64,000 nucleotides of DNA from Candidatus Saccharimonadota bacterium (lineage in GTDB: Bacteria > Patescibacteriota > Saccharimonadia > Saccharimonadales > UBA4665): positions 62,001 through 126,000 of the forward strand of contig DAIDIO010000001.1 in the NCBI GenBank assembly GCA_027459325.1, read 5' to 3'. Below, piece after piece: positions 54,586 to 57,751 of this stretch. The notes beneath the pieces are model-generated. The model was not told the origin of the DNA and did not search any database. It saw only the letters and a program-made list of their open reading frames with translations. The translations under genes were made by a program, and so were the position numbers. Within the stretch, counting starts at the first letter, position 1. Each line of letters begins with the position of its first letter.

Positions 54586-55578
54586 ATGTTAGAAATTGAG
54601 AGACTCTCAGCTTATTATCCATTTGACGAAGATGTTTTGCAGGCAGTTAGTGATGTTGCCGAGCATCAAAGAAAGTTAGACTGGCAGTCTATTGCCGGCA
54701 AATTGCCGGAACCGATCATTTTCAGTCCAGAGAACGGCAATCCAGTCGAAATATTAGATATTGCTCCTAAAGACTATGATTCGCAACAGGTCTACCATCT
54801 GCCAATGGGCTGTGGGCTCGATGCCAGTATGACTATGCGGGTAGCAACTTTGGCTAGTGCCCAACCGAGTAAAAGAATAATTGCAATTGCTAACCCGGGC
54901 GGCCCAGGGGCAGCTTTCGGTAGCTTATCGAAGGAAGACCGACGAAGCTTAAGTAAAGGTGACATGCGACCAGTTGTAGGGCCTGTGTTCAAGTATTTAA
55001 ACAGTCAAAAATTAAGTGAGGTTGTTCAGGTGGGCTATTCTTATGGCGCTGATAAAGCGGCAGCCGCAGCCTTTTACGCTCCTGATTATAATCAGGTCGT
55101 ACCTAAAGGTATTTTTATGGAACCGGCTTCAGTGATTCCTAGGAGTATTATTGATTTAGCCTTAGCTTTTAATGCTAGTGCCGATGGACTTGATGACTAT
55201 ATTGAAGCGACCGCTAGCCCTGTTTACCTTGAAGCCAGGAAGTTAGCCGAGAAGTCAGGCCACGGCTTCGCCGGCTATGTGATGGGGCTTATGAGACTTA
55301 GTAATATTGCTATCGCGAAGGCACTTTGTTATCCATGTTTCTGGACGCACTTGTCGGGTAGCCTGGAGCAAAACAAAGATATGAAAGCCGACCTAGTCTG
55401 GGGGAGTGACAGTACAATATCCCCAGATAAATCCATAAGGTATCAATTTAAAAAACCAAATAAATTTTATGACCATCTGGAAAGAGTCCGAACGCTGGTG
55501 ATAGAAGACGGTAAACACGCCATGGGTGACGATATCTACCTGCTATCGGCCATGGTTTTGCAATGCTCTAAAGATTAA
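54586..55578 (+). CDS. Alpha/beta-hydrolase-like protein
   Basis: 330 aa, no signal peptide. The nucleophile elbow is QVGYSYGADKAAAAA (GxSxG); a preceding PGGPGAAFG could form the oxyanion loop, an Asp in VWGSDSTISP and a His in EDGKHAMGDD could complete the triad. Substrate unknown. It stands alone between the glycan genes and the LexA-like gene. Confidence 0.7.
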   Translation: MLEIERLSAYYPFDEDVLQAVSDVAEHQRKLDWQSIAGKLPEPIIFSPENGNPVEILDIAPKDYDSQQVYHLPMGCGLDASMTMRVATLASAQPSKRIIAIANPGGPGAAFGSLSKEDRRSLSKGDMRPVVGPVFKYLNSQKLSEVVQVGYSYGADKAAAAAFYAPDYNQVVPKGIFMEPASVIPRSIIDLALAFNASADGLDDYIEATASPVYLEARKLAEKSGHGFAGYVMGLMRLSNIAIAKALCYPCFWTHLSGSLEQNKDMKADLVWGSDSTISPDKSIRYQFKKPNKFYDHLERVRTLVIEDGKHAMGDDIYLLSAMVLQCSKD

Positions 55579-55583
55579 AAATA

Positions 55584-55612
55584 TTCAAAAATTGTACAGT
55601 AAGTGTCATAAT
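55584..55612 (+). promoter_or_regulatory. Probable promoter of the LexA-like gene
   Basis: TTCAAA (55584-55589), 17 bp, CATAAT (55607-55612). The -10 ends 6 bp before the GTG at 55619, again predicting a leaderless message. Confidence 0.45.
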
Positions 55613-55618
55613 ATTAAT

Positions 55619-56101
55619 GTGAATGAAAACCAAACAATAAAACCGATTAGACCAACCAGAAAGCAGAAGGCGCTGCTGGATTTCATAGCCGAATTTATTG
55701 CTGAGAACGGCTACAGTCCGAGCTATAGGGAAATTCAGGACGGGATGGGTTATGGATCTATTGCTACGGTTGCTATACACGTAAATAACCTCATAAAACG
55801 TGGACATTTAATTAAGCGCAGCCGTTATGCTAGGTCACTCGAACTAACCGCTAGTAGTCAGCCTACGAAGATAACTACCAATGAAGTAGCGCCCAGCGAA
55901 GAAAAATGGCTGGTAGAAAAAATAGAGCATGCTTTTAAAGAAGTAGAACTTAATGCCACCGATCTAACCCTCAATAGTCTTGACCATCTATATGTTCTAA
56001 TCGGTGCCCTCAAAGTTTTAGGCATGGAAGGTGCCGCTCAGAGTTTTATGCCACGTCTGACCGCCTTAAAGCAGAAACAGGCAGCTACGAGGACGGTTTA
56101 A
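55619..56101 (+). CDS. LexA-like winged-helix DNA-binding protein without protease domain
   Basis: 160 aa from GTG 55619; earlier in-frame ATGs lie inside the hydrolase gene. PTRKQKALLDFIAEFIAENGYSPSYREIQDGMGYGSIATVAIHVNNLIKRGHL is the LexA N-terminal DNA-binding domain. The C-terminal 80 residues (EEKWLVEKIEHAFKEVELNA...) are helical and contain no Ser-Lys S24 protease or Ala-Gly cleavage site. So it can bind DNA like LexA but should not self-cleave. Directly upstream of a B12 riboswitch. Target unknown. Confidence 0.8.
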   Translation: MNENQTIKPIRPTRKQKALLDFIAEFIAENGYSPSYREIQDGMGYGSIATVAIHVNNLIKRGHLIKRSRYARSLELTASSQPTKITTNEVAPSEEKWLVEKIEHAFKEVELNATDLTLNSLDHLYVLIGALKVLGMEGAAQSFMPRLTALKQKQAATRTV

Positions 56102-56183
56102 AAGCACCGTTTATCTGCGGTAATTAATACTATATCTAGCGCTTTATCTGAGTGCTAAACTACTAAATACATTTAACAAAATA

Positions 56184-56260
56184 TGCTGGAAATAGGTGAG
56201 AATCCTATACTGTGCCGCAACTGTGAAGTAAGGTTAATAACTTGCAAGTCAGATACAGCA
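56184..56260 (+). ncRNA. Cobalamin (B12) riboswitch aptamer
   Basis: The conserved core is readable: GGAAAT then AGGTGAGAATCCT (P3-like stem TAGG/CCTA around TGAGAA), TACTGTGCCGCAACTGTGAAG, and the B12-box-like AAGTCAGATAC. An outer stem TGCTG (56184-56188) pairs with CAGCA (56256-56260). These blocks occur in the order and spacing of the cobalamin riboswitch family (adenosyl- or related cobalamins). The B12 box has one base fewer than the usual GTCAGGATAC. Confidence 0.87.
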
Positions 56261-56306
56261 AATAAAGAAAAGTCTCTCGAGCAGGAGCAAAGATTACAAA
56301 AGCTTA

Positions 56307-56335
56307 GCCCCTGTCCGATCACAGAGGGTGTTTTT
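56307..56335 (+). terminator. Riboswitch expression platform: terminator hairpin covering the ribosome site
   Basis: CCCCTGT (56308-56314) can pair with ACAG-A-GGG (56321-56328, one bulged A), and the stem is followed by TGTTTTT running straight into the ATG at 56336. The 3' arm contains AGAGGG, the only Shine-Dalgarno candidate. The hairpin can therefore block both transcription and translation. CAGG at 56282-56285 could pair with CCTG (56310-56313) as a competing structure. Confidence 0.7.
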
Positions 56336-57751
56336 ATGTTAGCTATTGAATCGGTAGGTATTTATGAACGTCAACCGCAGTCGGAAATCTACGGGCGGTC
56401 TTTAAGCAGCATATATCGGCTCGGTAGATTCATGGTCAATAAAGCCATTACTGAAGTCATTGATAGCCCGGAGGCGTGGCAAGCCAAAGCTGAATTTTAT
56501 ACATCCGTAGAAGAAGGCTTTGGCACCGACAGCGAGCTAGGTGGCGGCTTAGAGGTTCGTAAATTTGATTATTATCCGGTCCGTGATGGAAAGGTAATGG
56601 CAGCCGATTTAAAGACTGCTATTTCCGATACGACTAAAGCCGGACTAATCTGCGCCGAGGACAAGGCTGAGACAGAAGAAGCCAAAGGCGACACCAGGTT
56701 TTTACCGCAGCTCGTACGGTCTAGATGGGATCATTACAATGCGCTTGAGACCGACAAGATGGTAAGGGGCGAAACCGATTACAACACAAGAATTGTCATT
56801 TCTCCATTTCCAGAAGAAGCCGCCGCAATCAGTGGCGATGCCTATTGGCGGGGCATTGGTTACGTGCCGAGTCTAAGACGAGGCTTTGTTCAACTGTACT
56901 ACGCTGGTGATCAATTTCTAGCCGGTTCTTTGTCTTTTGATGGCAGCGATAAAAGCCGCATAAGAGAAGTGTCTGCAGAACATAATGTAGATATACCCGT
57001 GGATGAATCGACGGATAATTGGCTGCAGTATGCCATTACCGGTAACTATAGCGAAGAGGAGGCAAGGCAACTAGGGCTTTTAATCGCCGATAGCTGCGCG
57101 GACCCTAAGTACCAGAAAAGTACTAACACGGTCGAAGTTACGGCCTCACATCGGGCGGTTATGGAAGAAGCCTTTAATAACTCATATATTCACATTTGCG
57201 AATCTTTGTTTAAAGGTTACCAAACGCCGGCAGCTAGAAGTCTTATCAGGCAGTTTAGCCTTAAGGCGGCGCAATTTAATGATCGATACAAAACAGCCTT
57301 AAAAGAAATGGCTACAGATAAAACCCGCTTTTCCGATAAAGAGGCGATTATTCTCCACGAGTTATTAGTTTATTCAACAATTGAAATGATGCGCGCCCTT
57401 CATTTAAGAAGCAGCCACTATTCCGTTGACCGTTCGTACGTGCCGCCCTATGAGTACATGCGTATGCAGGCGCTCAGCACTGAATCATTTCAGTCGATGT
57501 TGACAGAGTATGGCGCTGAAGGAGCAAGAAATAACCGTAGCTATTCTGCCTGTGGTTTGGAAATATCTTTAGGAAGAGAAGGTGGTATATTCGATAAACC
57601 GGGTCAGGTTTTCGGAGGGCTGTCTTCAAGCGAGGATCGCTATGGGAGTCGTTACTTCAAATGCTCTAATGGCCACTGGAACTATAGGCCACAGAATAAA
57701 TTAATAGATAAATGCCAACACCAAAATTGTAAGGCTAAAGTTAAGTGTTAG
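56336..57751 (+). CDS. Unknown protein under cobalamin riboswitch control, C-terminal zinc-finger-like
   Basis: 471 aa from ATG 56336; an in-frame ATG at 56183 would translate through the riboswitch and is rejected. No family recognised, no signal peptide or membrane segment. No B12-binding DxHxxG motif and no ribonucleotide reductase or transporter motif were seen. The C-terminus (FKCSNGHWN ... KCQHQNCKAKVKC) has Cys/His spacing of a small zinc ribbon. The middle is acidic and helical. Regulation by B12 suggests an isozyme or stand-in for a B12-dependent function, or a B12-uptake factor; both are inference. Confidence 0.7.
   Translation: MLAIESVGIYERQPQSEIYGRSLSSIYRLGRFMVNKAITEVIDSPEAWQAKAEFYTSVEEGFGTDSELGGGLEVRKFDYYPVRDGKVMAADLKTAISDTTKAGLICAEDKAETEEAKGDTRFLPQLVRSRWDHYNALETDKMVRGETDYNTRIVISPFPEEAAAISGDAYWRGIGYVPSLRRGFVQLYYAGDQFLAGSLSFDGSDKSRIREVSAEHNVDIPVDESTDNWLQYAITGNYSEEEARQLGLLIADSCADPKYQKSTNTVEVTASHRAVMEEAFNNSYIHICESLFKGYQTPAARSLIRQFSLKAAQFNDRYKTALKEMATDKTRFSDKEAIILHELLVYSTIEMMRALHLRSSHYSVDRSYVPPYEYMRMQALSTESFQSMLTEYGAEGARNNRSYSACGLEISLGREGGIFDKPGQVFGGLSSSEDRYGSRYFKCSNGHWNYRPQNKLIDKCQHQNCKAKVKC

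Follow-up and report, generated by a model that had tools for sequence, protein, structure and literature searches.

A predicted repressing cobalamin riboswitch with a fused terminator-like and Shine-Dalgarno hairpin precedes an orphan gene family in one order of Saccharibacteria

The stretch of 64,000 nucleotides analysed here (the window) carries a cobalamin riboswitch in front of an orphan gene. It is best read as a repressing switch with a short aptamer and a kissing-loop platform, whose target would act in cobalamin acquisition or handling for the class II ribonucleotide reductase (RNR); we put the probability of this reading at roughly 0.7. Including stem P13, the riboswitch spans positions 56132-56287. 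The aptamer, P13, the Shine-Dalgarno (SD) hairpin and the T tract were all recovered by sequence comparison, as were the family of target genes and its association with the switch.

The window was searched with Rfam covariance models. RF00174 (Cobalamin) scored 33.4 bits (gathering score 31.5; E 9.4e-5 for the 64-kb window) at 56132-56276 on the forward strand. It was the sole Rfam family above its gathering score in the window, and this was its only match in the genome (0.82 Mb). Because the score was marginal, a second covariance model, R1, was built from 31 relatives with the window sequence left out. R1 matched 56177-56287 with 91.4 bits (E 4.9e-19), again the only match in 64 kb, and the aligned copy had no non-standard pairs and a complete set of core positions. 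A first-pass annotation, made from the letters of the window, had placed a B12 riboswitch at 56184-56335, which both models bore out. Its start agrees with that of P3, one position further on; the Rfam match reaches further in the 5' direction.

The aptamer core lies at 56185-56259 (+) and consists of P3 (56185-56188/56256-56259), P4 (56192-56196/56204-56208), P5 (56211-56212/56218-56219) closed by loop L5 UGCCG (56213-56217), and P6 (56221-56223/56250-56252). The aptamer is short, and no P8-P12 extension was seen. Aptamers of 44 relatives were aligned to the named structure, which was paired in 96.5% of cells; structures slid along the alignment as a control were paired in 30-51%. Double-change cells numbered 135, compared with 36 in shuffles, and compensatory changes were found in each of P3, P4, P5, P6 and P13. 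Judged by this covariation and by the two models, the cobalamin riboswitch is real and intact.

Between the aptamer and the SD hairpin, a conserved P13/L13 hairpin was found at 56274-56287 (+), which the first-pass annotation had overlooked. Its stem (CUCU/GGAG) carries the loop L13 CGAGCA (56278-56283), the putative kissing partner of L5. Stem variants covary among relatives (CTCT/AGAG, CTCC/GGAG, TTCC/GGAA, CTTC/GAAG and ATCT/AGAT). L13, of the form CG-N-GCA, is complementary to L5 once loop position 3 is bulged out, and this is the variable position (A 47, C 2, G 2, T 1). Five complementary pairs and one bulge were present in 44/44 aligned relatives. These pairs are invariant and show no covariation, and the rows had been picked by their L13 motif; it is complementarity, together with the known mechanism, that supports the kissing loop.

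Relatives were taken from 60 Saccharibacterial genomes. RF00174 was matched at E ≤1e-3 in 42 of them, in 16 above the gathering score. A search with an alignment of 24 of the orphan proteins yielded 54 genes of the family (~470 aa) in 53 of the 60 genomes. The DNA upstream of these genes was searched for the core motif, and the aptamer was present in all but two cases; these two (G007 and G051), together with others that have odd platforms, matched families of clan CL00101 or R1. An aptamer thus stands upstream of 54/54 orphan-family genes or of their operons, and in G011 and G028 it precedes the operon that the orphan gene closes. The predicted riboswitch is widespread in one order of Saccharibacteria. 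No paper treating Saccharibacteria and cobalamin riboswitches together was found in the open-licence literature, the part that was searchable.

A promoter-like element, TACTATATCTAGCG, was found upstream of the aptamer at 56128-56141 (+). It matched once in the window and recurs, with variation, at a similar distance 5' of the aptamer in most relatives, where it may act as a promoter. The element is followed by a TAGCGC...GTGCTA hairpin (56128-56157 in all), also in most relatives, and a promoter or operator is suspected.

The SD hairpin occupies 56307-56329 (+), with A56325 bulged. The SD sequence GAGGG (56324-56328) lies in its 3' arm, and a T tract, TTTTT (56331-56335), fills the space to the start codon (ATG, 56336-56338), the arrangement that had been described in the first-pass annotation. 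The window stem (56307-56314 with 56321-56329) was folded at -9.7 kcal/mol, with just a modest margin over shuffles (z -1.45). Equivalent hairpins in 46 relatives gave a mean z of -3.0 against mononucleotide shuffles, and in most relatives the SD sequence, typically GAGGGTATTTTTATG, lies in a 3' arm between P13 and the start codon. On the 3' side of the window hairpin the bulged stem is followed by GU and five U. A generic consensus terminator scan of the + strand did not report this hairpin, for which the bulged A may be the cause. The T run is conserved: within the 12 nt that precede the start codon, 34/42 relatives have one of at least 4, compared with 3/49 other ORF starts of the window; for a run of at least 5 the counts are 27 of the 42 and 0 of the 49.

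Conservation thus gives good support to the earlier proposal of a single hairpin that is terminator-like and also hides the ribosome site, since both features recur in relatives; termination itself is what we infer from them. About 8 of the 42 relatives lack a T run, and termination would therefore not be universal. The switch could instead be purely translational, with a hairpin that merely hides the SD sequence and a U tract that plays no terminating part. The hairpin is indeed retained in relatives without a T run (for example GAGGGCAAAATG in G003 and GAGGGTAGAGTG in G010), and in G001 and G057 the gene begins directly after P13, whose 3' arm serves as the SD sequence. The excess of T runs over other ORF starts, at the position of an intrinsic terminator right after the stem, argues against this reading, which we consider rather unlikely.

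The 3' side of P13 is complementary to the 5' arm of the terminator-like hairpin. Truncated transcripts were folded, and an antiterminator (56278-56316, +) was predicted, formed between 56278-56288 (L13 together with the P13 3' half) and 56307-56316, on the 5' side of the SD hairpin. In the window transcript ending before the 3' arm of the hairpin, the antiterminator formed at -13.6 kcal/mol (z -2.5) and paired 8 of 10 nt, while P13 pairing was about 0; in such ligand-free transcripts the antiterminator is thus predicted to be more stable than P13. Truncated transcripts of the relatives showed antiterminator pairing above the shuffle mean in 42/42 cases (7.6 vs 4.3 of 10 nt, Wilcoxon p 2e-13), and duplex energies were better with a species' own partner than with those of other species (cross-species permutation p 0.0005). 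When full-length leaders were folded at equilibrium, the SD hairpin dominated in most cases with or without P13, and no clear switch was seen. Because of this dominance, switching could occur only kinetically or with the help of another factor.

Under the repressing model, L13 and the P13 3' half would capture the 5' arm of the SD hairpin as the polymerase leaves the aptamer of a ligand-free transcript. The SD sequence would then stay unpaired and the orphan gene would be made. Bound cobalamin would allow the L5-L13 kissing loop to lock P13, and the 5' arm would be released. The hairpin could then close over the SD sequence with the U tract behind it, so that both termination and ribosome occlusion would be possible.

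The controlled gene (56336-57751, +) encodes 471 aa with a C-terminal Cys-rich, zinc-ribbon-like tail. An ATG at 56183, which would give a longer frame overlapping the aptamer, was considered as the start; this frame is open through the aptamer in 5/49 relatives only, and ATG 56183 is probably not the real start. The protein had no match in Pfam, NCBIfam or PHROG. Two AlphaFold models, obtained from five sequences, had pLDDT values of 78 and 76; neither had a PDB fold match at E ≤1e-3, and the first also had none in BFVD. One scan of genome contigs and one of viral contigs found no relatives, and among 287 genomes of the phylum from outside the order there was one match to the family, confined to the C-terminal tail. 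The possibility that the tail is a sorting tag borne by many proteins was rejected, as no second convincing copy was present in the genome. In the window protein (57595-57748) and its relatives (alignment A1), several distinct types of Cys-rich C-terminal tail were seen, apparently exchanged between orphan subfamilies. Upstream of the riboswitch, 55526-56101 encodes a LexA-like DNA-binding protein in which no peptidase domain was detected and which is syntenic in many relatives. A 330-aa ORF without a family match (54586-55578) lies immediately upstream of the LexA-like gene.

The first-pass annotation had considered a B12 riboswitch unexpected in such a genome and had seen no B12 genes. Neither view held, as the riboswitch occurs widely in the order and the adenosylcobalamin-dependent ribonucleotide reductase NrdJ is encoded in the same genome (NF005122, 1357.9 bits, cut-off 859) and in most relatives (above cut-off in 55/60). 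A genome lacking B12 enzymes was thereby ruled out. The nrdJ gene lies on a contig (C26) other than that of the window, and the gene upstream of it reads as nrdR. Since NrdJ is the B12 enzyme that was found, adenosylcobalamin is the expected ligand. The B12-binding domain PF02310 was absent from the window's genome and had no hit over cut-off in 30 relatives; the PduO-type adenosyltransferase PF01923 was absent too, with none in 40 relatives. B12 auxotrophy of the organism is plausible.

DUF4430 is the type of domain found at the C-terminus of transcobalamins (PMC4350170). It co-occurs with DUF6580 in six relatives, in genes that are probably for B12 uptake; neither domain is in the window's genome. 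In five relatives (G001, G008, G011, G028 and G031) the DUF4430-DUF6580 pair is led by a riboswitch, and the DUF4430 locus of G047 (L142) had a weak R1 match (25.5 bits, E 7e-4). In family f26, the sampled genomes without the switch or the orphan gene have RNRs of ~800 aa (two verified as class I) or none, and G234, the sole sampled genome with the orphan gene, has a class II NrdJ and the riboswitch. In G027 (L137:137-2763) a B12 riboswitch stands before a class I nrdA, which is followed by an nrdB-like frame. Between the riboswitch and nrdA, a GC-rich hairpin and a T run were noted.

This G027 locus is a B12-independent backup under a related riboswitch, and the orphan protein might likewise be such a backup, for instance in deoxynucleotide supply, shut off when B12 is present, rather than an uptake protein. 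G003 and G055 would fit, since they have the switch and the orphan gene and an RNR large subunit was not found in either (G055 is 98% complete). Against this stand G008, where DUF4430-DUF6580 fills the usual slot of the orphan gene between the LexA-like gene and nadD, and G011 and G028, where an operon with DUF4430-DUF6580 has the orphan gene in third place; the protein also had no similarity to any enzyme in the searches made. The context as a whole (DUF4430-DUF6580, the G027 nrdA and the RNRs of f26) points to a role of the orphan protein in B12 supply and makes the replacement of B12 less likely, so that a backup function is doubtful. From its genomic associations, the orphan protein probably serves to acquire or handle B12. 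The chances are about even that the orphan proteins found a new cobalamin-related family, in uptake, binding or delivery to the class II RNR, limited to one order of Saccharibacteria.

An Rfam score just 2 bits over the cut-off might suggest that the window copy is a remnant in decay or one unable to bind; this is very improbable given 91.4 bits with the order's own model, its standard pairs and its intact core, and the R1 result ruled out a vestigial or chance match. An activating switch, with the gene turned on by bound B12, has one known corrinoid precedent, A. halodurans cobT, in which the 3' side of P13 is itself the 5' side of the terminator (PMC10653944), and is still more remote here: P13 can coexist with the SD hairpin, which is a stem of its own, and the 3' half of P13 pairs with the 5' arm of that stem, as in a repressing design.

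The repressing reading indicates that many Saccharibacteria, usually regarded as stripped-down parasites, apparently sense B12 through RNA. This sensing is tied to an adenosylcobalamin-dependent ribonucleotide reductase, with possible dependence on host B12. The riboswitch suggests that these ultrasmall cells manage B12 for a B12-dependent DNA-precursor enzyme and that the orphan protein is part of the task. Riboswitches have been named as candidates for inducible control of expression where such control is lacking (PMC11665869), and a natural ligand-responsive element from this lineage could serve the purpose. The main interest lies in the B12 dependence and in the orphan family, on which a functional handle is gained across the order.

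In the shortness of its aptamer the window's switch resembles Rfam RF01689 (AdoCbl-II), which shares clan CL00101 with RF00174; three relatives (L107, L110 and L152) exceed the RF01689 gathering score, whereas RF00174 gives the window copy its best score. In Streptomyces, the B12-independent nrdAB genes are under B12-riboswitch control. The G027 riboswitch is similarly linked to whether a B12-dependent or a B12-independent RNR is used, whereas the window's target belongs to an orphan family. As in the translational switches env8HyCbl and Escherichia coli btuB, a kissing loop (bulged in env8HyCbl also) would control a hairpin with the ribosome site (PMC10653944); unlike in those two, the SD sequence is on a separate downstream hairpin that ends in a T tract. 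The closest wiring is that of Priestia megaterium metE, tested there by mutagenesis, in which the L5-L13 kissing loop stabilises P13 and the P13 3' side otherwise captures the 5' side of the terminator to form the antiterminator (PMC10653944). The window differs from metE in its short aptamer, in an L13 of the form CG-N-GCA with one bulged position, in its orphan target, and in a terminator-like stem that also holds the SD sequence and abuts the start codon. On wiring of the metE type, the window's switch would have terminator and ribosome site fused.
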